Assembly: GCA_029252405.1 (NCBI GenBank)
Contig: JAQXBM010000019.1
Coordinates: 1-49,294 of the forward strand
DNA length: 49,294 nt
Source of the DNA: Crocinitomicaceae bacterium
GTDB lineage: Bacteria; Bacteroidota; Bacteroidia; Flavobacteriales_D; Crocinitomicaceae
Direction of reading: 5' to 3'
The notes beneath the pieces are model-generated. The model saw nothing but the letters and a program-made list of their open reading frames with translations. It searched no databases and was not told where the DNA came from. Made by a program: the position numbers and the translations under genes. Of the stretch, positions 19,139 through 31,214 are shown piece after piece. The first letter of the stretch is position 1, and each line of letters opens with the position of its first letter.

Positions 19139-20386
19139 TCACACCATCAACTTCCCAAAATCATCCCAAAAACTTGGATAACTTTTCGATACTGCTTCAG
19201 CACCGGAAATCGTCATTTCTCCGTCAATCTTCGTTCCAGCAATAGCCAAACACATGGCGATTCTGTGATCATTATGTGAATCGACATCGGCACCAACTAA
19301 TTTGTTTCCTCCATGAATGAGCATATCATCGCCATTGAGGTCGATTTTCAATCCCAATTTCCCAAATTCCTCTTGTAAGACAGTACCTCGATCGCTCTCC
19401 TTGTTTTTGAGTCGATGGACACCTGAAATAGTTGAAACACCTTCACAGAAAGCAGCGAGCGCAACCAAGGCTGGAAATAAATCTGGACAATGCGTTGCAT
19501 CTGCCGAGAATGGTTTTCGGTTCGAGCCATCTATTGAAATTGAATCATTCTCGAAGTTAAGCTCACAGTTAGCCGACTTCAGCATCTCTAGCAATGCTTT
19601 GTCTGCCTGTGCACTTTCCAAATTCAATCCTGAAAGAGAAATATCATGTCCTAATGCTGCTGCAACCAACCAGTAACTCGCCGAGCTCCAATCACTTTCA
19701 ATGATATATTCATCACAATGGTAGGATTGATTTCCTCTGATCGTAAATCGCTCGAAATTGTCATGTTCCACCTTCACCCCGAAAGCTTCAAGTGTATTCA
19801 ATGTCATTTGAACGTATGGAATGCTCTTTAATTTCCGAACGATTAATGTTGAATCTTCTTCAATGAGCGGCAACGACATCAACATACCTGATAAAAACTG
19901 TGAGGAGGTACTTCCATCAATTTCTACCTTCCCACCAATCAATTTCCCGTGAACGGTAATCGGTAAAAAGCCCTCATTCGAGACAACTCGAACGCCCATT
20001 TGAGTCAAATGTTCCTCAAAAAACAACTGAGGACGTAGCGGAAGAGATCCTTCTCCAGATATCGTAAATTCTCCTCCTTGACCTGCGCATACGCCCGTAA
20101 TCAAGCGCATCCCTAATCCACTTTCACCAGCATTTATCTCGGCCTGCTTTGGGAATTCTTGAATGCCTTTGATTTCCGTCACTTCTTGAAAAGAACTTTC
20201 TAAACCTGCACCAAGTTGAAATATATTTCGAAGCATCACTTGCTCATCATCACTATCACCAATGCGATATAGCACTGTCACTCCCTTGCTCAAGCCTGCA
20301 GCCAAAATTGCACGCTGCCCATCACTTTTTGATGACGGAACAACAACGGAGCCATTTAACTCACATGAGGAAATCACTCGTTTCAT
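19139..20386 (-). CDS. aroA: 3-phosphoshikimate 1-carboxyvinyltransferase (EPSP synthase)
   Basis: Transfers enolpyruvyl from PEP to shikimate-3-phosphate, the sixth shikimate step. 415 residues. Substrate motifs are VVPSSKSDGQRA near the N-terminus, AGESGLGMRL, DGSTSSQFLSGML and the late NDHRIAMCLAIAG; the two-domain inside-out barrel is complete. The phylum's variant SKSDGQRA replaces the more common SKSISNR form. The start overlaps the stop of the DAHP synthase fusion in ATGA, so the two enzymes are coupled and share the upstream leader. Confidence 0.96.
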   Translation of the reverse strand: MKRVISSCELNGSVVVPSSKSDGQRAILAAGLSKGVTVLYRIGDSDDEQVMLRNIFQLGAGLESSFQEVTEIKGIQEFPKQAEINAGESGLGMRLITGVCAGQGGEFTISGEGSLPLRPQLFFEEHLTQMGVRVVSNEGFLPITVHGKLIGGKVEIDGSTSSQFLSGMLMSLPLIEEDSTLIVRKLKSIPYVQMTLNTLEAFGVKVEHDNFERFTIRGNQSYHCDEYIIESDWSSASYWLVAAALGHDISLSGLNLESAQADKALLEMLKSANCELNFENDSISIDGSNRKPFSADATHCPDLFPALVALAAFCEGVSTISGVHRLKNKESDRGTVLQEEFGKLGLKIDLNGDDMLIHGGNKLVGADVDSHNDHRIAMCLAIAGTKIDGEMTISGAEAVSKSYPSFWDDFGKLMV

Positions 20387-21462
20387 GTCTTGCGTTTTTC
20401 AGTATTCATCACTTTGGTTTGATGACGAATCGATTCTTGGTGAATCGCATCCATCAACTGACGCACGAACTGCTGTGTGAGCCTAAACTCTCCTCTATGT
20501 TCAATACGTGAAGCGATCACTTTTTGCCAATGGTCTTGTTGCAGAATCGTAATGTTATTTTCACGCTTCATCTGGCCAACTTCCTCACTTAATTCCATTC
20601 TAGCCCCGAGAATTTCAAACAAGCGATCATCCAAAATGGAAATCTTCGCTCTCAATTCTTCCATGCTTCCCTCCAAATCTTTAGAGACTTCAACAGAACG
20701 CAAAACGAGTTGAGAGAGAATATCATTCAACCCATCAGACGTTACTTGCTGAGCGGCATCTGACCACGCTTCATCTGGATTAGGATGTGTTTCAATCATC
20801 AATCCCTCAAAGTTCAAATCCATCGCTTTTTGACTCACTTCGAGGAGTAAATCACGTCGTCCTGTGATATGACTCGGATCACAAATAATCGGTAAATCTG
20901 GGCGTTGTTCCTTCAAGGCAATTGGAATTTGCCAGCTAGGAACATTTCTGTATTTCTTGTGTTTGTAGACTGAAAAACCCCGGTGTACAGCAGTTAAGTC
21001 AGTGATTCCAGCTTTCTCAAAACGCTCAAAAGCTCCCAACCATAATTGCAAATCAGGATTCACAGGATTCTTAATCATTACGGGAATATCAATCCCTTGT
21101 AAGGCATCGGCTATTTCTTGCACAGCAAAGGGATTAACGGTTGTGCGAGCTCCGATCCAAAGTACATCCACTCCAGCTTTAAGTGCTGCTTCAACGTGCT
21201 TCTTATTCGCAACTTCCGTCGTTGTTGGAAGGCCTGTTGCCTTACCTGCGTTTACCAACCAAGGGAGAGCAATTTCACCCAGTCCTTCGAAGCTATTTGG
21301 ACGAGTACGTGGCTTCCAAATACCCGCGCGAAGCAATTTGACAGAAGGGTTTTTCGCCACCTCCTTACAAATCATCATCACCTGTTCCTCACTTTCGGCA
21401 CTACATGGCCCAGCGACAACAAACGGTCGATCTCCTCTACTAATCTTCTCTGCTAATTTCAT
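20383..21462 (-). CDS. Bifunctional DAHP synthase / chorismate mutase
   Basis: 359 residues. Residues 1-265 are a class I-beta DAHP synthase barrel: VVAGPCSAES with the metal Cys, RAGIWKPRTRP, TEVANKKHVEAA, WIGARTTVNPF, CDPSHITGRRDLL with the metal His, and ETHPNPDEAWSD. Residues 270-359 are an AroQ chorismate mutase helix bundle (MEELRAKISILDDRLFEIL onward). The same C-terminal fusion is known from Prevotella, where the mutase domain mediates feedback by prephenate. It condenses PEP with erythrose-4-phosphate and also makes prephenate. It follows a leader peptide and terminator (21497-21612) and overlaps aroA. Confidence 0.95.
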   Translation of the reverse strand: MKLAEKISRGDRPFVVAGPCSAESEEQVMMICKEVAKNPSVKLLRAGIWKPRTRPNSFEGLGEIALPWLVNAGKATGLPTTTEVANKKHVEAALKAGVDVLWIGARTTVNPFAVQEIADALQGIDIPVMIKNPVNPDLQLWLGAFERFEKAGITDLTAVHRGFSVYKHKKYRNVPSWQIPIALKEQRPDLPIICDPSHITGRRDLLLEVSQKAMDLNFEGLMIETHPNPDEAWSDAAQQVTSDGLNDILSQLVLRSVEVSKDLEGSMEELRAKISILDDRLFEILGARMELSEEVGQMKRENNITILQQDHWQKVIASRIEHRGEFRLTQQFVRQLMDAIHQESIRHQTKVMNTEKRKT

Positions 21463-21496
21463 AATTCAAGTTCCTTAAAAGTACCTAATTTTCAAC

Positions 21497-21526
21497 AAAA
21501 AAATCCCGACGTTTAGCGCCGGGATT
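21497..21526 (-). terminator. Intrinsic terminator in the 5' leader of the DAHP synthase-aroA operon (putative attenuator)
   Basis: On the minus strand AATCCCG, an inner GCG/CGT stem with loop, then CGGGATT and a run of T ending at 21497. It lies 34 bases upstream of the DAHP synthase ATG and no leftward gene ends before it, so it must act on this operon's own leader transcript. Confidence 0.75.
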
Positions 21527-21564
21527 CATAGTTATGTTAAAACAATAGTTGGTCCAAACGCTCA

Positions 21565-21612
21565 TTATTCAATGTCGTTCCAAAGCCAAGCATATGTTGT
21601 AATCTTTCTCAT
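21565..21612 (-). CDS. Putative aro leader peptide with Tyr and two Trp codons
   Basis: A 15-codon frame reading MRKITTYAWLWNDIE, ending 38 bases before the terminator hairpin. Trp at 9 and 11 and Tyr at 7 are far above the expected frequency for so short a peptide. A partial -7 element TCCCTTTG (21628-21621) precedes it by eight bases. Position, size, aromatic codons and the following terminator fit a ribosome-mediated attenuator that would raise DAHP synthase and AroA when charged Trp (or Tyr) tRNA is scarce. A full antiterminator is not obvious; GCGTTT just after the stop can pair with AAACGT in the terminator loop and 3' arm. Confidence 0.55.
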   Translation of the reverse strand: MRKITTYAWLWNDIE

Positions 21613-21650
21613 TGGTTTTACAAAGGGAAAAAAAATATTTGAATAATCCG

Positions 21651-21682
21651 TTGTTTTTGTGAAAAATTAATTGTGATATTTG
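21651..21682 (+). promoter_or_regulatory. Promoter of the trp leader
   Basis: TTG (21651-21653), 21 bases, GATATTTG (21675-21682), one mismatch from TAnnTTTG. The leader-peptide ATG is five bases downstream, so transcription would start at or next to the ATG. Confidence 0.5.
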
Positions 21683-21687
21683 CAGAG

Positions 21688-21756
21688 ATGTACAAAATGA
21701 CTCAAAATACAAATTGGTGGTGGCACTCAACGAATCGTTGGTGTGAGTGGCGCTAG
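21688..21756 (+). CDS. trpL: trp operon leader peptide (five Trp in 22 residues)
   Basis: A 22-codon frame with Trp at 10, 11, 12, 18 and 21, including a WWW run, ending 22 bases before an intrinsic terminator in front of trpE. This is the hallmark of a trp attenuator: a ribosome stalls on Trp codons when charged tRNA-Trp is low. Inside the frame CAACG (21728-21732) and CGTTG (21736-21740) can form hairpin 1:2. ACGAATCG (21730-21737) can instead pair with CGGTTCGT (21781-21788), the 5' arm of the terminator, giving an antiterminator. A second in-frame ATG at 21697 still includes all Trp codons. Confidence 0.85.
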   Translation: MYKMTQNTNWWWHSTNRWCEWR

Positions 21757-21778
21757 TTTGTAGTTTTCCATATTCATG

Positions 21779-21811
21779 AGCGGTTCGTTTCCTACGAGCC
21801 GCTTTTTTTTT
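21779..21811 (+). terminator. trp attenuator terminator
   Basis: AGCGGTTCGT (21779-21788) pairs over ten positions (one G-U) with ACGAGCCGCT (21794-21803) around a five-base loop, followed by nine T (21803-21811). It lies between the Trp-rich leader peptide and trpE, 25 bases before the trpE ATG. Confidence 0.9.
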
Positions 21812-21835
21812 ACATCATTTTTCAAAATTTATTTC

Positions 21836-23242
21836 ATGTTTATTTATTCAAAACTCAGTCAGTTCTCTGCAGACGTATATACTCCAGTAGAATTGTATTT
21901 ATCGCTTCGGAACCATCATCGCAAGACGTGTTTGCTTGAAAGCAACGACTATCATTCACGACAAAACAGCAAGTCATTTATTGGCTGTGATCCTATCGTG
22001 GAGTTCGTCCTCAAAGATGACCTACTCAGGATTTCAACCAGATCAAACATTGAAGAAATTCAACTGAAATCAGAATTATCTCGGGCAAAGCAAGTTCAGT
22101 CAATTTTGGATGAATACACCTTTTCTGAAACGAAATTCAACGGTTTTTTCGGAAGAATGGGCTTCGAATTCAATCTAAAAGATGAAACGCACATTGAGAA
22201 ATCTTCCAAAGAAGACGACCTACCCGATTTGCACCTTTTCATCTTCAAACACGTAATTGTCATCGATCATTTTACATCGGATGGTTACTTACTCGAAAAC
22301 AGCCTTGCTGAGATTGAAAAATCCGCTCAGATTTACGAATTGTTCCAAAAGAATAGCATCATGGAGTTACCTTTTGAAACGATTGGCGAGGAAACATCAA
22401 ACTTCAGTGATGCTGAGTTCAGCGAGTTAGTTGAGCGGGGAATTCAACATTGCGAAAGAGGTGATGTCTTTCAACTCGTCCTTTCAAACGAATTCCAACA
22501 GGCCTTTTTTGGGGATGAATTTCAGGTGTATCGGGAATTACGAAGACTGAATCCTTCTCCCTATTTGTTTTTCTTTGATTTTGAAGAATACCGTTTATTT
22601 GGCTCTTCTCCCGAAGCACAATTGTTGGTTACCGATGGCAAAGCTGAAATCCACCCGATTGCGGGAACGGTTCCTTTGACAGGTGACCGAGAAGTTGACT
22701 CTGAGAAACTGGAATTCTTATTGAACGATGAGAAGGAAAATGCCGAACACACCATGCTAGTTGATCTCGCTCGAAACGACTTAAGCCGTGATTGTACTGC
22801 CGTAAAAGTCGATAAATACAAAGAAGTCCAACATTTCAGTCATGTCACACACTTGGTTTCGAAAGTGACAGGACAATTGAAAACAGACAACGCCTTCGAA
22901 GCATTCTGTCATTCCTTCCCTGCGGGAACACTCTCGGGAACTCCAAAGCCGAAAGCATTAGAACTCATTCAGCAATACGAAACGGACAACCGCAATTTTT
23001 ATGGTGGAGCCATTGGTTTGATTGGTGCAAATGGTGATTTAAACACGGCGATTGTCATTCGAAGCATTCTAAGCCGAAACAATGTCTTGCATTACAGAGC
23101 GGGTGCAGGCGTAGTACTCGATTCAATCCCAGAAAGCGAAACGAAAGAAGTGCATCACAAACTAAGAGCACTGCGAACAGCTATCGATCGTGCAGTGAAA
23201 TCATGTCAACTCATCAACAACACAGAGCTATGCAAAAGATAA
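21836..23242 (+). CDS. trpE: Anthranilate synthase component I
   Basis: Makes anthranilate from chorismate with ammonia delivered by TrpG. 468 residues from the ATG at 21836; an earlier in-frame ATG (21776) is inside the attenuator hairpin and is rejected. The N-terminal LLES motif (TCLLESNDYHS) is the Trp feedback site. The chorismate-binding domain has GDVFQLVLSNEF, GSSPEAQL, HPIAGTVPLTGD, LVDLARNDLSR and FPAGTLSGTPKPKALELI. The last 13 bases overlap trpG. Both attenuation and feedback inhibition are therefore expected. Confidence 0.97.
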   Translation: MFIYSKLSQFSADVYTPVELYLSLRNHHRKTCLLESNDYHSRQNSKSFIGCDPIVEFVLKDDLLRISTRSNIEEIQLKSELSRAKQVQSILDEYTFSETKFNGFFGRMGFEFNLKDETHIEKSSKEDDLPDLHLFIFKHVIVIDHFTSDGYLLENSLAEIEKSAQIYELFQKNSIMELPFETIGEETSNFSDAEFSELVERGIQHCERGDVFQLVLSNEFQQAFFGDEFQVYRELRRLNPSPYLFFFDFEEYRLFGSSPEAQLLVTDGKAEIHPIAGTVPLTGDREVDSEKLEFLLNDEKENAEHTMLVDLARNDLSRDCTAVKVDKYKEVQHFSHVTHLVSKVTGQLKTDNAFEAFCHSFPAGTLSGTPKPKALELIQQYETDNRNFYGGAIGLIGANGDLNTAIVIRSILSRNNVLHYRAGAGVVLDSIPESETKEVHHKLRALRTAIDRAVKSCQLINNTELCKR

Positions 23243-23796
23243 CTGTTATCGATAACTACGATTCCTTCGTGTTCAATCTCGTTCGTTATTTTGAAGAGTT
23301 AAATTGTGAAGTGAGCGTTCAAAGAAATGATCGAATAGATTATTCTGAACTAGAAAATTCAGATGGGATTTTGCTCTCGCCGGGACCAGGGATTCCAACG
23401 GAAGCAGGGCAATTAATGGAAGTCATTGACCGATTTGCGGAATCTAAAAAGATGTTAGGAGTTTGTCTTGGGCACCAGGCGATCGCGCAGCATTTTGGAG
23501 GAGAAATCTCTCAGTCGATGAAAGCCATTCACGGTAAGCAAAGTTCGATTGAAATAGACCCAACAAGCACTCTGTTTCATTCGCTCGAACCGAACATTGA
23601 CGTTGGCAGATATCACAGTTGGCACGTTGAGCAACTACCTGACTCTATGCGATCGACAGCACAACTTTCAACAGGTCAGATCATGGCGATAGAGCACTCA
23701 AACTTTCCAATTTACGGGGTTCAATTTCATCCAGAATCGATATTGACCCCACAGGGAAGGACGATAATTTCCAACTGGTTAAATGCATTAAAATGA
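23230..23796 (+). CDS. trpG: Anthranilate synthase component II (glutamine amidotransferase)
   Basis: 188 residues from the ATG at 23230 (MQKITVIDNYDSFVFNLVR, the typical start); an earlier in-frame ATG at 23203 lies in trpE. The class I glutaminase triad is complete: nucleophile Cys in GVCLGHQAIA, and His-Glu in GVQFHPESILT. LSPGPGIPTEAG lines the oxyanion region. It supplies ammonia from glutamine to TrpE. The stop overlaps trpD in ATGA. Confidence 0.97.
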   Translation: MQKITVIDNYDSFVFNLVRYFEELNCEVSVQRNDRIDYSELENSDGILLSPGPGIPTEAGQLMEVIDRFAESKKMLGVCLGHQAIAQHFGGEISQSMKAIHGKQSSIEIDPTSTLFHSLEPNIDVGRYHSWHVEQLPDSMRSTAQLSTGQIMAIEHSNFPIYGVQFHPESILTPQGRTIISNWLNALK

Positions 23797-24788
23797 AAAC
23801 ATTATTAGAAAAATTACTACGGCACGAACACCTCAATTTTGAGGAAGCACGCTCCTTCATCTTTGCGATTGAAGAAGAAAAGTTCACCTCTGAAATGATC
23901 AGCGGAATGCTCATGACAATCCAAATGCGTGGAGCTCAGCTCACAGAAATGACAGGCTTCAGATCTGCACTTTTGGAACTGTCCAATCGGATTGAACTCG
24001 ACAGCGAACATGCAATTGATTTATGCGGAACAGGAGGTGACGGAAAAAACACCTTCAATATCTCCACAACAACGGCATTTGTTTTGGCTTCAATGGGAAA
24101 GAAAGTCATTAAGCACGGGAATTACGGAGTGAGTTCGTTGTGCGGATCTTCAAATGTACTGGAAGAACTGGGAATTAAGTTCACCAGCGATCAAGGCGAA
24201 CTTCAGCGGCAACTTGATGAACGAAACATTTGCTTTCTCCACGCACCGCTCTTCCATCCAGCGATGAAAAAAGTGGCTCCCATTCGGAGAAACTTAGGCG
24301 TTCGAACGATCTTCAATAACCTTGGACCGTTAATTAATCCAGCACAACCGAAATTTCAGTTAACTGGAACATACTCCTTGGAATTAGCGAGAATGTACCA
24401 ACATATTTTGCGAACGGAACGAACGAATTACCGCGTACTTTACGGAATGGATGGGTTCGATGAAATTTCACTGACTGACGACACGCGCATTTTAGGTGGA
24501 CAGAGCGATTCAGTTTTGAATGCATTTACACTCAATTCGAGTCCTATCAAACTTGCGGAAATAAAAGGAGGAAGAACGGTTCATGACGCAGCTCAAATCC
24601 TGAATTCAATTCTCAGCGGACATGGCAGCGACGCTCAAAATGCTGTTGTAGCTGCAAACACTGCGGTCGCATTGCAACTTTATCATCCAACGGCTTCGGT
24701 ACTTGATTTATTCAACGAAGCACGTCAATTTATTCAATCTGGACACGCTCAACTCAAAGCATCTGTTCCAACAACACAGTATTTATGA
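23793..24788 (+). CDS. trpD: Anthranilate phosphoribosyltransferase
   Basis: Adds the ribose-phosphate of PRPP to anthranilate. 331 residues of the class IV phosphoribosyltransferase fold. PRPP and substrate motifs are DLCGTGGDGKNTFNIST, KHGNYGVSSLCGSSNVLEELG, and RRNLGVRTIFNNLGPLINPA. KHGNYGVSS stands in place of the more common KHGNRSVSS, with Tyr-Gly for Arg-Ser; I cannot say whether this matters. It has ATGA overlaps with both neighbours. Confidence 0.97.
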   Translation: MKTLLEKLLRHEHLNFEEARSFIFAIEEEKFTSEMISGMLMTIQMRGAQLTEMTGFRSALLELSNRIELDSEHAIDLCGTGGDGKNTFNISTTTAFVLASMGKKVIKHGNYGVSSLCGSSNVLEELGIKFTSDQGELQRQLDERNICFLHAPLFHPAMKKVAPIRRNLGVRTIFNNLGPLINPAQPKFQLTGTYSLELARMYQHILRTERTNYRVLYGMDGFDEISLTDDTRILGGQSDSVLNAFTLNSSPIKLAEIKGGRTVHDAAQILNSILSGHGSDAQNAVVAANTAVALQLYHPTASVLDLFNEARQFIQSGHAQLKASVPTTQYL

Positions 24789-25573
24789 AAATCTTAGATC
24801 AAATAATCGTCTCAAAAAAGAAAGAAGTCGCATTGCTGAAAGAAAAATTTAGCTACGCAGATTACGAAAACAGCCCATTTTTTTCTGAAGAAACCCGTTC
24901 CATAAGCTCAAAATTGGCAACTACTGAATTCGGAATTATTGCGGAATTGAAACGTAAATCGCCAAGTGCAGGATACATCAACAAAGATCTCGATGTTATT
25001 CAGCAAGCGAAGCTCTATGAATCGAGCGGAGCGTCTGCGATTTCCTGTCTCACAGATTACTTTTATTTCGGAGGTTCTGGTGAAGATTTGTCTGCTATCA
25101 AACCTGCGACGTCCATTCCAATATTGCGCAAAGAGTTCATTATTGATGAAATACAACTGTTCGAATCCAAAGCGATAGGCGCGGATGTCATCTTGCTCAT
25201 TGCTGAGATTCTGACAAAAGAACAAGCGCTGCATTTGACCATTATGGCGCAGTCGCTGGGAATGGAAGTGATTATGGAGTGTCACAGCTACAACGAATTG
25301 AAAAAAGTAAATGATCTCGTCGATGTGATTGGTGTGAACAACCGCGATTTGCAAGCACAAAAAACCGACATTCAGACTTCCTTTGATCTCTACAATTTCA
25401 TCCCTGAAGGCAAACTGTGCATTTCAGAATCTGGAATTCGTTCGAAAGATGATTTGATTCAATTGTCGGAAAAAGGATATCACGGAGCGCTGATTGGCGA
25501 GCATATTCTGCAGAGTTCCGATCCAGGTGAAGCCATTAGAAATCTCCAGTTCAAAAAAACGGAGTTATGCTAA
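24785..25573 (+). CDS. trpC: Indole-3-glycerol-phosphate synthase
   Basis: Closes the indole ring from CdRP. 262 residues, a TIM barrel. The N-terminal ILDQIIVSKKKEVALLKEK helix is typical. Catalytic and phosphate motifs include IAELKRKSPSAG, ISCLTDYFYFGGS, LRKEFIIDEIQ, GADVILLIAEIL, IGVNNRDLQ and SESGI, with ALIGEHIL at the end. It is a stand-alone protein, not fused to TrpF. It overlaps trpF by seven bases. Confidence 0.97.
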   Translation: MKILDQIIVSKKKEVALLKEKFSYADYENSPFFSEETRSISSKLATTEFGIIAELKRKSPSAGYINKDLDVIQQAKLYESSGASAISCLTDYFYFGGSGEDLSAIKPATSIPILRKEFIIDEIQLFESKAIGADVILLIAEILTKEQALHLTIMAQSLGMEVIMECHSYNELKKVNDLVDVIGVNNRDLQAQKTDIQTSFDLYNFIPEGKLCISESGIRSKDDLIQLSEKGYHGALIGEHILQSSDPGEAIRNLQFKKTELC

Positions 25574-26160
25574 TCAAAGTTTGCGGGATGCAATCTGCAA
25601 AACAAGTTGCAGAACTCGACCAAATAGTAGATTTCATCGGATTCATTTTCTATGAGAAATCAAAGCGGTTTGTGAGGTCTACTCCAGTTGTTGAAAATGC
25701 ACTCAAAACTGGTGTATTTGTAAACGCTCCAGTTGCAGAAGTGAACGATTGTATTGAAAATGAATCGCTCAACGTCGTGCAGTTACATGGAAACGAATCA
25801 CCTGAAATGTGCGCAAATCTAACAGAGAAAGCGAAAATCATCAAAGCCTTCGGTGTAGATGAAGGTTTCAATTTTAACAAAACGCAAGCTTATGCCGAAT
25901 GTGTTGATTACTTCCTATTCGACACCAGAACGAAACTTCATGGAGGCTCAGGGCGGCAATTTGATTGGTCGCTGCTCTCGAATTATGACGGATCCACTCC
26001 TTTTTTTCTGAGTGGCGGAATCAATCCAGATGCACTAGAATCCATCAAGAAACTTGAGCATCCAAAACTGATTGGTATCGACCTCAACAGCGGATTCGAA
26101 CATGCTCCAGGATATAAAAACATTTCAGAATTACACCAATTTATTAAAGAATTACAATGA
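25567..26160 (+). CDS. trpF: Phosphoribosylanthranilate isomerase
   Basis: Amadori rearrangement of PRA to CdRP. 197 residues. The general-base Cys is in MLIKVCGMQ at the N-terminus. Other landmarks are [46 protein letters not shown] with the general-acid Asp, [11 protein letters not shown], and [16 protein letters not shown]. The start overlaps trpC by seven bases and the stop overlaps trpB in ATGA. Confidence 0.96.
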
Positions 26161-27332
26161 CAAAAATTGCCTCTCTCCCAGATGAAATGGGATTTTACGG
26201 AGATTTTGGAGGAGCTTACGTTCCTGAGTTACTCCGCCCGAATGTTGAAGAATTGGCGTTAGCATTCAAGGAAAAGAAAAACGATCCGGTATTTCACTCG
26301 ACGTATATTTCGATGTTGGAAGATTACGTGGGACGCCCTACTCCGCTTTATTTGTCTGAAAAGCTCAGTACGAAGCATGACTGTACAATTTATTTGAAGC
26401 GTGAAGATTTGAACCACACGGGAGCTCATAAAATCAATAATGCGATAGGACAAATACTCTTAGCGAAGTCGATGGGGAAAACCCAAATTGTCGCAGAAAC
26501 TGGAGCTGGTCAACACGGAGTGGCAACGGCTACAGCTTGCGCGCTGATGGACATGGAATGTATTGTTTTCATGGGCGAAATTGACATTGAACGTCAAGCC
26601 CCAAATGTTCAGCGCATGGAATTTCTTGGGGCGAAGGTCGTTCCAGCGACAAGTGGGAGTAAAACCTTGAAAGATGCAACGAATGAAGCGATTCGCTACT
26701 GGATCAATCATCCTGATGCCTACTATTTGATTGGCAGTGTTGTTGGACCTCATCCCTACCCCGAGATTGTAGCACATTTTCAATCGATTATTTCGAAGGA
26801 AATTCAGGAGCAATTGAAAAAGAAGACGGGAAAAAGTTCACCAAGCAAAGTGATTGCTTGCGTGGGTGGAGGAAGTAACGCAGCTGGTGCTTTCTTTCAT
26901 TTTTACGATGAAGAGAACGTAGAGTTAATCGCTGTGGAAGCAGCTGGTCATGGATTAAAATCTGGTAAATCCGCTGCGACCTCGATCTTGGGAACTCCTG
27001 GCGTTTTGCACGGAAGCATGACTTTGTTGATGCAAGATGAGTTCGGACAAGTCACTGAACCGCATTCCATCTCAGCAGGATTGGATTACCCCGGAATTGG
27101 ACCACTGCACGCTTATTCGATTGATTCAGGAAGGACCAAAAGTATTCCTGTTACTGATCAAGAAGCACTAATTGCAGCCCAAGAACTAACAAAATCTGAA
27201 GGGATTATTCCCGCACTCGAGAGCGCACATGCACTGGCAGCACTGAATTCCGTTGAACTGGAACCAAGTGATATTGTTGTAGTGAATTTATCAGGTCGCG
27301 GTGACAAAGATTTAAGTACTTACCTCAAATAA
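26157..27332 (+). CDS. trpB: Tryptophan synthase beta subunit
   Basis: PLP enzyme joining indole and serine. 391 residues, TrpB1 type. The Schiff-base Lys is in [11 protein letters not shown]. Also seen are [28 protein letters not shown], the phosphate loop [10 protein letters not shown], and ALESAHALA. The COMM-domain residues that contact TrpA are present ([11 protein letters not shown] region). The gap to trpA is six bases. Confidence 0.98.
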
Positions 27333-27338
27333 TTAATC

Positions 27339-28076
27339 ATGAATCAATTTAAAAAAGCATCCAAGCAACTGAGTATTTTCGTGACAGCAGGATATCCAAA
27401 GCTCAACAGTTTGAATGATCAATTGAATTTACTCGAAGCCAATGGCGTTGATTTTGTCGAGGTGGGAATACCGTTTTCAGATCCAATGGCTGATGGACCA
27501 ACAATTCAAGAAACCAGTGATCTCGCTCTCAAAAATGGAATGAACCTTGAACTACTTTTTGAGCAACTAAACGAAAGAACCTCGACTCTTCCTTTGGTGC
27601 TTATGGGATACTTGAATCCTGTTTTGTCGTATGGTATTGATCGGTTCTTGGAATCGTGTAATCGCGTTGGAGTTAGATCCGTTATTCTACCTGATATGAG
27701 TTTGGAAATCTACGAGCGATTCTATCGAGATCAATTTGAAAAGTACGAAGTGTTTCCAAGTTTTTTGATCACGCCAACGAGTTCAACACAACGCATACAG
27801 CGGATCAGCAAAGTCTGTAAAAACAGCTTCGTTTACTTGGTTTCATCAAACGCGACAACAGGAGGGAAAAGTACATTTAATGCTGATCAAGCTAAGACCT
27901 ATCAATCCATCAGAGAAAATTGCGGAGAGACTCCGCTCTTTATTGGGTTTGGAATTGACTCGAAGGAGAAAGTTGAATATGTTCAAGAAGTGAGTCATGG
28001 AGCGATAATCGGATCTGCTTATTTGAAAGCATTAGGATTAAACAAGGAAAAAGATTTTCTAAAATCAATTAGATAA
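27339..28076 (+). CDS. trpA: Tryptophan synthase alpha subunit
   Basis: Cleaves indole-3-glycerol phosphate to indole, which is passed to TrpB. 245 residues, a TIM barrel. The catalytic Glu is in GVDFVEVGIPFSDPMADGP, the catalytic Asp in SVILPDMSLE, and the phosphate site around GFGIDSKEKV and GAIIGSAYLK. It is the last gene of the operon. Its stop touches the stop of convergent tsaB with no bases between, so no terminator fits at the junction. Confidence 0.97.
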   Translation: MNQFKKASKQLSIFVTAGYPKLNSLNDQLNLLEANGVDFVEVGIPFSDPMADGPTIQETSDLALKNGMNLELLFEQLNERTSTLPLVLMGYLNPVLSYGIDRFLESCNRVGVRSVILPDMSLEIYERFYRDQFEKYEVFPSFLITPTSSTQRIQRISKVCKNSFVYLVSSNATTGGKSTFNADQAKTYQSIRENCGETPLFIGFGIDSKEKVEYVQEVSHGAIIGSAYLKALGLNKEKDFLKSIR

Positions 28077-28739
28077 CTACTTCACAACTTTTTTTCCTGC
28101 GATAAAATCTTTCAAATAAAATGGCTCGAAGTAGGCAACATCTTCAAAATCAGCGTTCGCATACTTTTGAAAAGCCAATTTTACTTGCCCTTTTGCGGAC
28201 GATTTGATGGAAGTATTGATCGTGCAATTACGGTTTGCCCAGACGTCCTCTAATTTCCGAGCTCCATCTCCAAAATAGGTGAACGGCTCAAATTCACGGT
28301 AGGAATCTTCGTCGATGATATCGGCAGAAATTTCCTTCAGTTTGTTTCCTTGAGCATCGAAGAAGCAATTATACACTTCCATTCTTCGCGCATCGATAAC
28401 AGCGCATTTTGTTTGATCGGAATCATCCAATGCAGCAAGAGCTGAAAGACTATCGATGGCAATCAGTGGGATTTTCAAAGAGTAGCACAAACCTTTTGCA
28501 GTGGAAACCCCAATTCTCAATCCCGTGTAGGAACCTGGACCTGATGCTACGGAAATTCCATTTAAATCCTTGATTGAAATATTTGCTTTCTGCAAAACGC
28601 GCTCGATAAAAATGGTAAGATTTTCTCCGTGAGAGTATCCTGCCTCTTCGAGTTCTTCTATCGCTACCAATTCGCCGTCTTTCGATAAGGCAACTGAGCA
28701 CACTTTGGTCGATGTTTCAAGATGAAGTAAGAAAGTCAT
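28077..28739 (-). CDS. tsaB: tRNA threonylcarbamoyladenosine biosynthesis protein TsaB
   Basis: A scaffold partner of TsaD in adding t6A37 to tRNAs that read ANN codons. 220 residues of the ASKHA fold: LLHLETSTKVCSVAL at the start, GYSHGENLTIFIERVL, and SVASGPGSYTGLRIGVSTAKGL, the TsaB signature. IDARRMEVYNCFFD is also characteristic. The start shares its A with the upstream stop (TAATG). It is in a three-gene leftward operon with an exported protein and a response regulator. Confidence 0.95.
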   Translation of the reverse strand: MTFLLHLETSTKVCSVALSKDGELVAIEELEEAGYSHGENLTIFIERVLQKANISIKDLNGISVASGPGSYTGLRIGVSTAKGLCYSLKIPLIAIDSLSALAALDDSDQTKCAVIDARRMEVYNCFFDAQGNKLKEISADIIDEDSYREFEPFTYFGDGARKLEDVWANRNCTINTSIKSSAKGQVKLAFQKYANADFEDVAYFEPFYLKDFIAGKKVVK

Positions 28740-29143
28740 TAGATGTCCTTTTCCTGCTTTTTGGGATTGTCCCAGTCTTTGGGTTTTACGCAGTAATCGT
28801 GCTCGAGCTTGAGCACGTCACCAATCGTTTTGTAGCCGAAAAGTTTCTTTTTCCAAACATACGCCAAGTCCAAAGGAATGTCGCGCGTGATTCCATCTTC
28901 GTCCAAATACTGAATATACACTTCCCAGTATTCCTCATAGCCCGTGTGCTTCATGTACACTTTGATGGGCTGCACCTTTTCTGGTTCTTTCAGCGAACAG
29001 CATCCACAAAAAAGATAGATGGATTTCATCTTTTCAATTTTCGCTACTGCGCGATCTGCATCTGCTTTTGAAATGTACGCCAATTGATCAGCATAGCTCA
29101 ATGTTGAGATAGTTATAAAAAGGATGGTCAATAATTTTTTCAT
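28739..29143 (-). CDS. Small exported protein of unknown function
   Basis: 134 residues with signal peptide MKKLLTILFITISTLSYA. The mature part has a cysteine cluster, YLFCGCCSLKE, followed by a beta-rich stretch (IKVYMKHTGYEEYWEVYIQYLDED) and a single late Cys (HDYCVKP). I do not recognise the family; metal binding or a disulfide-stabilised fold is possible. It overlaps the response regulator by four bases (ATGA) and tsaB by one base, so the three are co-translated. Confidence 0.75.
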   Translation of the reverse strand: MKKLLTILFITISTLSYADQLAYISKADADRAVAKIEKMKSIYLFCGCCSLKEPEKVQPIKVYMKHTGYEEYWEVYIQYLDEDGITRDIPLDLAYVWKKKLFGYKTIGDVLKLEHDYCVKPKDWDNPKKQEKDI

Positions 29144-29829
29144 TCTGAAACTTCTAACTTAAATCCAATTCCGTGTACGTTGGTGATTTGAATTCGCTCA
29201 TCTTGTTTGAGGTACTTTCTCAATTTGGTGATGAAGACATCCAAACTACGACCTACGAAATAATCATCTTGTCCCCAAACGGCATTCAAAACAACTTCTC
29301 GCGCTACGACTTGGTTTGCAAATTTACACAAGATCTTCAAAATTTGCGCTTCCTTTTTGGTAAGAATTTTCTCAAATTCTGGGTGCTTAAGCTCGTAATT
29401 GATGGTGTCAAATTGATACCCCGCGATGTCGTAAACATCCTTTTCTTTTGCTTCTGGTTGTATGTCAACTCTTCTCAAAAGAGCTGCGACACGCAATTGC
29501 AATTCTTCGACGTTGAAGGGCTTGGTCAAATAATCATCTCCACCAGATTTAAATCCTTCTACTTTGTCTTGATCGTTTGATTTCGCTGTTAAAAACAGAA
29601 TTGGAATGTTATTGTCCATTTTTCGGACGTCCTTTGCCAAGGTGAAACCATCCTTTTTCGGCATCATGACATCGAAGATGCACATGTGAAAATCATTTTC
29701 ATTGAATGCCTTGAATCCCTCTGCGCCATCAGACTTCAAGGTTACTTCGTAACCATTCGATTTTAGTGAGTCCGAGATGATGAATCCTAGGTTGGTATCG
29801 TCTTCAACAAGTAGAATTTTGACTTTCAT
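29140..29829 (-). CDS. OmpR-family response regulator
   Basis: 229 residues. Receiver: acidic pair ED at 9-10, phospho-acceptor Asp53 in CIFDVMMPKKDG, and Lys103 in LTKPF. C-terminal winged helix: LTKKEAQILKILCKFANQVVAREVVLNAVWGQDDYFVGRSLDVFITKLRK. The YFVGRSLDVFITKLRK ending resembles Bacteroides RprY. No histidine kinase is adjacent, so the cognate kinase is elsewhere. First gene of the operon with the exported protein and tsaB. Confidence 0.93.
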   Translation of the reverse strand: MKVKILLVEDDTNLGFIISDSLKSNGYEVTLKSDGAEGFKAFNENDFHMCIFDVMMPKKDGFTLAKDVRKMDNNIPILFLTAKSNDQDKVEGFKSGGDDYLTKPFNVEELQLRVAALLRRVDIQPEAKEKDVYDIAGYQFDTINYELKHPEFEKILTKKEAQILKILCKFANQVVAREVVLNAVWGQDDYFVGRSLDVFITKLRKYLKQDERIQITNVHGIGFKLEVSE

Positions 29830-29921
29830 GTTCCAAGCTTTGTCACTAAGATATAAGAAAAGTCATCATGAGAAGTGAATTGAATTTCAAAAGCGGAATG
29901 TTTAACAGGAATTTAAGAAAT

Positions 29922-29952
29922 AAAAAACCCCAGACGATAAATGTCTGGGGTT
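29922..29952 (-). terminator. Terminator after the phosphate-porin gene
   Basis: On the minus strand AACCCCAGAC and GTCTGGGGTT form a perfect ten-base stem (29943-29952 with 29926-29935), followed by six T. It lies 27 bases past the porin stop. Confidence 0.9.
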
Positions 29953-29978
29953 CCGAATAAAGTTAAAGTTTTATTTAA

Positions 29979-31214
29979 CTAGAAGTGGATGTCCATTTGT
30001 AATCTGTACATCAAACCGCTATCTGGGCTATTGTCAGTTTGCAAGTAGCTAAGATCTGTTTGAACTTTCAAAGCGTGTCCAACAAAGTACTTAGACAATC
30101 CTAGTGTGTATTGTTTTTGGCTTGCTCTTCCTGTTACAGTTTCAGGATCAATTTGAGTGTATCGTCCAGCAAGTTCCCAGTTGTTTTTGAACAAGTATCC
30201 CGCTTGAAGGTTGATTCCGTTACCTACTCGCATTGTTCTCGTTGTTACAGATGCATCATCATTTACGATTGACTGTTGAACAGTTTCGCTTGGTGCAGTT
30301 CTGTTAGCGAATTCACCCATGAATGAGAAACCTTTGTATTTGAACATCATGTCAACGAAAATTGTTGAGGTTGTAATTTCAAAGTACCCGTCGATGTCGC
30401 CATCGTCGTTTGTATCGTAACTCATGTAGCTTCCTTGGTTAGCACGGTCTTTTACTGCACGATCGTGGTAATCGTATGTCACACCAAGTGCCAATTTTGG
30501 CTTTTTCTCACGTTTCAAGTCACCTCCCTTGTAGTCACCTTTGCTTGCGAATGAACCAAATGGATAGATTTCAACACGTCCAGTGTACTCGTATCCTCCT
30601 AAGTTTTGTTGAACAATATTTCGTCCTTCACCTTGAGAGAAAGCAAGTGCCGACTTTACTTGGAATTGTTTTCCAATCTTCGCCTTGTGATGTAACTGGA
30701 ATCCCATGTCACGATCAATGTTAAACACACTGTTCACTAATGAACGATCAACCAATTGCAAGTTTGCAGAAGAAACAACACGTTCTCTGTTACCTGGGAG
30801 TTTTGTTTGTCCAGCCCACAATGTGAAGTTTTTGTAGAAGTTCCATTTCAATACGGCATCCAAGATCATTTTAGGAGCAAAGTTCGTACGCTCACTAGCT
30901 TTACCTAAATCACGGTTAGACAACCCTAACTCAATCTTGTATTGTAATCTAGGATCAAAAGCGAATCCTCCGAATTTCAAACGAGCTCTTCGAATTAAGA
31001 ACTGAGAATCACCATTTCCGATACCTGTTGTGTCGTTCACATTCCACGAACCAATAAATAAGGATTGAAATCGAACTCCAAACTTCATACTCCAAGAGCT
31101 ATCAGCAGCAATCACATTATAGAGACCTTTACCAAATTTAGAGTCGATTTTTCTTTGACCGAACGCTGCAGAAGTTGATAACAATAATAGAGCAGCAATA
31201 ATAATTTTCTTCAT
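29979..31214 (-). CDS. Phosphate-selective porin O/P-family outer-membrane protein
   Basis: 411 residues. Signal peptide MKKIIIAALLLLSTSAAFGQ, then a 16-strand-type barrel with family landmarks: KFGVRFQSLFIGSWN, RRARLKFGGFAFDPRLQYKIELGLSN, WAGQTKLPGNRERVVSSANLQLVDRSLVN, and GINLQAGYLFKNNWELAGRYTQ. It ends in a phenylalanine-type beta signal (MDIHF). Such porins take up phosphate or polyphosphate under starvation. It is divergent from the Na/Pi cotransporter, and the gap holds TTAAC-type repeats and a -7-like CATCTTTG (31246-31239), so Pho control is inferred. Confidence 0.9.
   Translation of the reverse strand: MKKIIIAALLLLSTSAAFGQRKIDSKFGKGLYNVIAADSSWSMKFGVRFQSLFIGSWNVNDTTGIGNGDSQFLIRRARLKFGGFAFDPRLQYKIELGLSNRDLGKASERTNFAPKMILDAVLKWNFYKNFTLWAGQTKLPGNRERVVSSANLQLVDRSLVNSVFNIDRDMGFQLHHKAKIGKQFQVKSALAFSQGEGRNIVQQNLGGYEYTGRVEIYPFGSFASKGDYKGGDLKREKKPKLALGVTYDYHDRAVKDRANQGSYMSYDTNDDGDIDGYFEITTSTIFVDMMFKYKGFSFMGEFANRTAPSETVQQSIVNDDASVTTRTMRVGNGINLQAGYLFKNNWELAGRYTQIDPETVTGRASQKQYTLGLSKYFVGHALKVQTDLSYLQTDNSPDSGLMYRLQMDIHF

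Follow-up and report, generated by a model that had tools for sequence, protein, structure and literature searches.

The DNA analysed here, referred to as the window, is a stretch of 49,294 nucleotides from a Crocinitomicaceae bacterium (contig JAQXBM010000019.1) with a genome of 4.28 Mb, and our subject is the region in front of its tryptophan (Trp) biosynthesis operon. On the plus strand the order is a TTTG promoter-like box, a 22-codon open reading frame (ORF), a terminator with its T run and then trpE-G-D-C-F-B-A, as named by NCBIfam; the gene flanking the trp leader on the other side is divergent. For trpE, the start codon of which was picked through comparison with relatives, the best NCBIfam match was TIGR00564 (E 3.1e-114), with 382.5 bits against a cut-off of 517.7 bits, which it does not reach. 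The nearest TrpE proteins in the named collection come from two metagenome-assembled genomes (MAGs), one of Flavobacteriia (L032, 55% identity) and one of Fluviicola (L033, 53%), which suggests a Fluviicola-like bacterium. The evidence for all leaders, terminators and switches described below is computational throughout. The features of the trp leader region are as follows:

21675 to 21682, plus strand: -7-like promoter box GATATTTG, a single mismatch away from TAnnTTTG (a consensus reading only)
21688 to 21756, plus strand: leader peptide ORF MYKMTQNTNWWWHSTNRWCEWR, with its ATG at 21688, 22 sense codons and a TAG stop codon at 21754-21756
21707 to 21763, plus strand: long-range protector helix of ATACAAATT (21707-21715) with AGTTTGTAG (21755-21763), 8 of 9 pairs in the window, resembling the hairpin of an Rfam model discussed below
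21728 to 21740, plus strand: small 1:2-like hairpin CAACG-AAT-CGTTG, competing with the antiterminator
21729 to 21739, plus strand: 5' strand of the antiterminator, AACGAATCGTT, predicted to form with the ribosomal A-site on Trp10 and, in a shorter version, on Trp11
21779 to 21789, plus strand: 3' strand of the antiterminator, AGCGGTTCGTT, which shares bases with the 5' terminator arm
21778 to 21812, plus strand: intrinsic terminator with an 11-bp stem (21778-21804, GAGCGGTTCGT-TTCCT-ACGAGCCGCTT), a 5-nt loop and a T run
21836 to 23242, plus strand: trpE, first gene of an operon that runs through trpA (end 28076)

It is very probable (roughly 0.9) that transcription of the trp operon is attenuated at positions 21688-21812 by a ribosome-mediated switch. 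This had been proposed in the initial annotation, and the Trp codons, the terminator and the competing pairing all proved to be conserved over the phylum. The leader is rich in codons for the amino acid that the operon produces: Trp stands at codons 10, 11, 12, 18 and 21, that is, at five of 22 positions with three of them consecutive, exactly as first described. An intrinsic terminator separates the leader from the first gene; the initial annotation was right to place one before trpE, but the gap between it and the leader stop codon is 21 bases rather than 22, and the leader ends 79 bases before trpE. Two terminator-like sites were found between 21300 and 22200 (shuffle mean 0.7, sd 0.9), the second of them being the minus-strand terminator of a divergent leader described below.

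The leader, the terminator, their conservation and the matching pairing were computed, and from them we infer where transcription starts, that the leader is translated, that the ribosome stalls and that Trp is what the switch responds to, along the following lines: (i) a ribosome would load on the leader ORF near the 5' end of the RNA; (ii) when Trp-tRNA is scarce it would stall at Trp10 or Trp11, leaving 21729-21739 free to pair with 21779-21789; (iii) the 5' arm of the terminator would then be captured and the polymerase would read into trpE; (iv) when Trp-tRNA is ample the ribosome would reach the stop codon and mask 21729-21739, and the terminator at 21778-21804 would form and (v) in the absence of translation the protector helix and the small 1:2 hairpin would sequester 21729-21739, and the terminator would again form. 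The pairing of ACGAATCG (21730-21737) with CGGTTCGT (21781-21788), on which the original proposal turned, is indeed available and extends to 21729-21739:21779-21789, and the proposed CAACG/CGTTG hairpin is likewise present (21728-21732/21736-21740). The protector helix pairs codons upstream of the WWW run with RNA at and past the stop codon. When the RNA was folded by ribosome position, with the leading edge set 15 nt past the first P-site base, an A-site on Trp10 left 21729-21739 available for pairing with 21779-21789 at a point where the 3' arm of the terminator does not yet exist, and a ribosome at the stop codon allowed only the terminator to form. Comparative pairing and folding, both computational, thus point to a mutually exclusive antiterminator that a ribosome masks once it has reached the stop codon and leaves exposed when it stalls, albeit one that is disfavoured in full-length folds.

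The E. coli trpL attenuator (RF00513) combines a leader peptide containing Trp codons with competing antiterminator and terminator structures before trpE. The window is like it in having a Trp-codon leader, competition between antiterminator and terminator and trpE as the next gene, and unlike it in that the leader ATG lies 5 nt past the promoter box. No kinship in sequence between the two emerged, and RF00513 gave no match in the window at gathering scores, nor was it among 16 weak matches.

The initial annotation had suggested aligning the regions upstream of trpE in relatives for a conserved Trp-rich frame plus terminator. A TrpE orthologue was recognised by score in 20 of 60 relative genomes (E 1.1e-104 or better, the next matches being 2.6e-39 and weaker); 19 of 33 same-genus relatives, incomplete genomes among them, lack one by this measure. 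For 99 trpE genes, 21 from the window's own genome and its relatives and 78 from 80 named loci (L034 and L062 were dropped, their upstream DNA being too short), the 400 bases preceding the gene were scanned for an ORF of 8-50 codons that begins with ATG, contains WW or WxW and is followed by a terminator. Such an arrangement stands before 93 of the 99 genes, which are related by descent, and before 88 with WW alone; ten sets of 99 dinucleotide shuffles gave 0 each for both patterns, and 2000 shuffles per pattern of the window's own 400-base upstream region gave 0 with a WW or WWW leader plus terminator. Three of the six genes missed (L102, L107 and L109) carry a WWW leader further upstream, and in L102 and L107 it stands before a gene that we read as trpB from its first residues. 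Among the trpE loci of the window's genome and its relatives (L002-L022) a Trp-rich leader with a terminator is present in 21 of 21, the one in L022 having just two Trp codons. The automatic leader finding used for later comparisons omitted 13 of 101 loci, of which six (L039, L040, L061, L064, L073 and L093) do carry a Trp-rich leader with a terminator, three (L102, L107 and L109) are those with a leader further upstream, L034 is cut by a contig end and three (L036, L094 and L106) show none. L062, outside the 99-gene scan, has a leader. A textbook-like trp attenuator would therefore be the usual arrangement before trpE in the sampled Bacteroidota.

Across the phylum the 3' part of the leader is complementary to the 5' arm or loop of its own terminator, which leads us to propose an antiterminator for the trp leaders of the sampled Bacteroidota. 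In Terrimonas (L037), for example, GGGGCTT is complementary to AAGCCCC, and in Flavobacterium (L044) the bases GTCGTGA, which surround the stop codon, are complementary to TCACGAC; the matching segments are AGATGGAC and GTTCATCT for Dyadobacter (L053), and CGTCGGG and CCCGACG for Sphingobacterium (L042). Over 88 loci, leaders paired with their own terminators at a mean of -15.0 kcal/mol as against -11.4 kcal/mol with foreign ones (0 of 5000 permutations). The values were -15.4 and -11.4 kcal/mol (0 of 20,000 permutations) for 35 representatives with dissimilar terminators, a set that limits the effect of shared descent; the pairing region was defined after viewing the sequences, and the permutation controls for composition and not for that choice. 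Counted from the end of the first three Trp-run codons, the distance to the pairing is at least 9 nt in 71 of 88 loci (16-17 nt in 28 of the 88), approximately what the leading edge of a ribosome would give. In L060, L098 and L111 the pairing motif TCGTGA is kept even though the leader stop codon precedes it, which indicates that there the RNA and not the peptide is conserved. Closer to home, we aligned 17 rows, in which the named MAGs L032 and L033 join 15 loci of the same genus. Here the terminator was paired in 95.7% of cells with 7 of 11 pairs changed on both sides, and the antiterminator helix in 73.9% of cells as against 29-48% when slid.

Several observations weigh against the proposed attenuator. 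In the folding, an A-site on Trp12 made the modelled antiterminator much weaker, an A-site on Trp18 or Trp21 let the terminator alone form, and the terminator was favoured in every full-length fold; from this last result it follows that the switch must be kinetic. Three of the 99 trpE loci (L036, L094 and L106) have no leader in the upstream DNA examined, and a scan of the opposite strand matched 10 of 99 for WW or WxW and 1 of 99 for WW alone; the 10 are probably for the most part divergent leaders of the kind described below. The own terminator was within the best 10% of partners in just 16 of the 35 representatives, and pairing begins less than 9 nt from the Trp run in 17 of 88 loci. Finally, the 21729-21739:21779-21789 antiterminator is complete (11 of 11 pairs) in only 4 of the 17 aligned rows, these being the window's own subclade, and it covaries weakly, with both sides changed in 2 of 11 pairs when a one-column slide gives 4. 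The strong comparative evidence for the antiterminator is the phylum-wide permutation, not covariation inside the genus.

The antiterminator first proposed for the window is thus complete in its subclade only, and 11 of the other 13 rows achieve a greater share of pairs through a second Trp cluster (TGGTGT, CGTT) that pairs with the loop and foot of the terminator. L009 and L010 are exceptions, each with 7 of 10 pairs for the second cluster versus 8 of 11 for the antiterminator helix. The second-cluster pairing is formed in 84.1% of cells compared with 29-49% when slid by 1-3 columns, and it covaries moderately (both sides have changed in 3 of 10 pairs, a count also reached by two of the six slid versions, those of -2 and +3 columns); in L006 a Cys codon has become a Tyr codon and the loop has changed to match. 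Decay has left the window itself with 5 of 10 pairs of this helix. The alignment suggests that the antiterminator pairing has moved among near relatives. We had considered the second Trp cluster as an extra sensor, and now read it mainly as an RNA constraint given that its codons pair with the terminator loop and foot in those 11 rows.

We consider it improbable that free tryptophan is what is sensed, either by a QNTNWWW nascent peptide in the manner of TnaC or by the RNA as a riboswitch. The conservation of QNTN before WWW in several relatives speaks for such sensing; however, the protector helix can account for these codons in 12 of the 17 aligned rows, where 6-8 of 9 pairs form (the remaining five rows have 0-5), and the residues preceding WWW vary elsewhere in the phylum. 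In addition, other operons carry runs of codons for their own product, His before hisG and Phe/Tyr before pheA, a signature of codon-dependent stalling. As for a free-Trp riboswitch or a T-box, the whole window has no Rfam match at gathering scores, and no T-box or other riboswitch was recognised in it. An equally doubtful scenario is that the terminator is a fixed partial stop and that the short ORF merely sets trpE translation by reinitiation. Short leader genes near their gene have been proposed, in the part of PMC4833913 available, to boost reinitiation, Bacteroidetes included. By the figures given there, though, the 79-base gap between leader and trpE is far from the Bacteroidetes peak of 11-14 bp and beyond the at least 40 bp expected for attenuation; the Trp codons and the own-terminator pairing are, moreover, conserved. 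It is less credible still that the Trp-rich ORF is a chance frame beside an unrelated terminator belonging to an upstream gene or a small RNA. Short ORFs are common, 162 of at least 20 amino acids overlapping 19500-30500, but 93 of 99 trpE genes have the arrangement versus 0 in shuffles and the flanking gene is divergent, so that no upstream gene needs the terminator. We regard this last explanation as refuted because of the conservation before trpE.

There is precedent for a trp attenuator read by a ribosome in this phylum, and here the initial annotation, which did not know the mechanism to be well documented in Bacteroidota, needs correction. One match is relevant:

21668 to 21789, plus strand: Rfam RF01692 (Bacteroid-trp), 46.0 bits, E 1.9e-4

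Weinberg et al. 2010 (PMC2864571, as far as the available text goes) is the source of RF01692, the "Bacteroidete tryptophan peptide leader RNA". The alignment spans model positions 1-131, the full length, and is the only match listed for the window's own genome (E 4.8e-4), with a score below the gathering cut-off of 49 bits. The setting of the family, before Trp biosynthesis genes in Bacteroidota and with a peptide of Trp codons, is also found here (a trpE-A operon, a WWW leader and closest named loci from Bacteroidota). By alignment, the window's element would be a divergent near-threshold relative of RF01692 and not a formal member. The two are alike in preceding trp genes, in how the leader begins, in the WWW region and in the hairpin of the leader; the model differs in that it ends inside the 5' arm of the terminator and draws the leader hairpin alone, with neither terminator nor antiterminator. 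At the gathering score RF01692 catches 4 of 20 loci scanned, all 20 of which carry a Trp-rich leader, so that in these loci the arrangement extends beyond the reach of the model, and a covariance model including terminator and antiterminator might outperform it. Over the phylum it is recorded in 30 of 296 genomes, a figure obtained with strict filters and regardless of trpE presence that we do not use as a leader rate. In the portions of the literature at hand, PMC6414381 mentions such a leader at the trp operon of Flavobacterium psychrophilum and draws a comparison with E. coli, and a 2021 transcriptome study (PMC9723704) reports strong hints that amino acid operons of that species are attenuated through leader peptides. 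The latter names structured 5' elements at pheA and hisG, as in the leaders described here, and differs in that the part available names no antiterminator or DAHP synthase leader. A 2010 survey (PMC2965389), in its available part, gives just ermC and its own Firmicutes find as leader peptide systems outside Proteobacteria and Actinobacteria. Leader-peptide trp attenuation is therefore already catalogued in Bacteroidota, and the window adds a divergent case.

The start of the trp leader deserves comment. The TTTG of its -7-like box lies at 21679-21682, 5 nt upstream of the ATG, and a further TTTG at 21656-21659 is one that we take to be a possible -33 part of the promoter. If the box is right, the transcript would have no room for a Shine-Dalgarno site. 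The initial annotation had put the ATG at or near the transcript start. This is plausible and common in relatives but not universal: with leader starts taken as the best-fitting in-frame ATG, the spacing from TTTG to ATG is at most 10 nt (4-10 nt) in 55 of 85 leaders; it exceeds this in another 25, and for 5 leaders a 45-nt stretch contains no TTTG. The consensus TAnnTTTG is quoted in the part of PMC9723704 at hand, which also puts leaderless mRNAs at 5.5% in F. psychrophilum; in B. thetaiotaomicron, 5' ends of fewer than 10 nt make up 3.7%. Such ends being rare in both species, a near-leaderless leader would be unusual. The system bears on how the first ribosome is coupled to RNA polymerase without a Shine-Dalgarno site.

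A second leader, absent from the initial annotation, lies back to back with the first, before the gene for 3-deoxy-D-arabino-heptulosonate 7-phosphate (DAHP) synthase:

21621 to 21624, minus strand: TTTG of a divergent -7-like box, 8 nt before the leader ATG, with a similar layout in relatives
21565 to 21612, minus strand (21612-21565): divergent leader peptide MRKITTYAWLWNDIE, with one Tyr and two Trp
21515 to 21562, minus strand: proposed antiterminator of this leader, AGCGTT-T-GGA (21562-21553) with TCC-C-GGCGCT (21524-21515)
21501 to 21527, minus strand: terminator of this leader, preceding the DAHP synthase gene
20383 to 21462, minus strand: DAHP synthase-chorismate mutase fusion gene, followed by aroA (19139-20386)

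The start codons of the two leaders are separated by 75 bases. An aromatic leader with a terminator was found at 14 of 14 same-genus trpE-positive DAHP synthase loci, the window's own included (12 automatically, and L120 and L121, which are L014 and L016, by reading). The genus set has 15 trpE-positive genomes, G006 having been left out as contig ends interrupt its DAHP synthase gene. Such a leader is present at only one of 12 trpE-negative loci from the genus; these counts are not independent, as the genomes share descent, and the trpE-negative genomes are partly 72-90% complete, so that a few may truly have trpE. Outside the genus, no DAHP synthase leader was seen in four loci (L138-L141, two of them trpE-positive) or in L032, and the Fluviicola MAG L033 has one, MNLFLSIQHVGFSWWIAFLR, with a terminator identified by eye. 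Pairing with the own terminator in 15 DAHP synthase leaders was matched or beaten by 6 of 20,000 permutations, these leaders having been hand-picked after inspection and their kinship left uncorrected. By analogy with the trp leader, this minus-strand attenuator probably governs the DAHP synthase operon, and with it the entry step of aromatic amino acid synthesis, and would read Trp and Tyr. Whether Phe codons in this leader go together with the presence of prephenate dehydratase was also considered, and the mixed pattern led us not to claim such a connection.

We regard the chances as even that the trp/aro intergenic region is a double-headed sensor, in which two back-to-back near-leaderless attenuators would let the same charged tRNA set both entry into and use of the shikimate pathway. 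One of them, in front of trpEGDCFBA, would respond to Trp only; the other, in front of DAHP synthase-chorismate mutase and aroA, would respond to Trp and Tyr and in some relatives also to Phe. As a Shine-Dalgarno site would not fit, coupling would depend on immediate ribosome loading at the 5' end of the nascent RNA. If this is true, one intergenic region in the genus joins control of pathway entry and pathway use. Precedent for a leader before a DAHP synthase gene comes from Corynebacterium glutamicum aroF, where the available part of PMC4046766 gives a putative Phe-Tyr-Phe leader peptide; that case is from another phylum, and the window's leader differs in having Tyr and two Trp and in standing back to back with a trp attenuator. 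Paired trp and DAHP synthase leaders were not found reported in titles or abstract openings, in a search that subscription papers mostly lay outside. One locus runs against the trend: L133 (G012), trpE-negative and 99% complete, keeps a Trp-containing DAHP synthase leader, MKIQIQNKFILWWSTIFY.

Similar leaders stand before other operons. Before prephenate dehydratase (pheA), an aromatic leader with a terminator is present in 20 of 23 loci. In six of the 23 (L153, L154, L155, L162, L165 and L167) two complete Phe/Tyr-rich leader-terminator units follow each other in series, an arrangement that looked unusual to us; Salmonella mgtCBR was the only tandem attenuator among the literature matches listed. 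The window's own genome (G000) has no prephenate dehydratase domain above the Pfam cut-off, despite its chorismate mutase fused to DAHP synthase, and Phe auxotrophy is possible. A His-rich leader (at least 3 His) precedes hisG in 11 of 11 loci examined, with terminators identified by eye, and the hisG of the window's own genome (L145) has the His leader MKYTQLHHHHFHTCTQASGK, with HHHH, and then a terminator.
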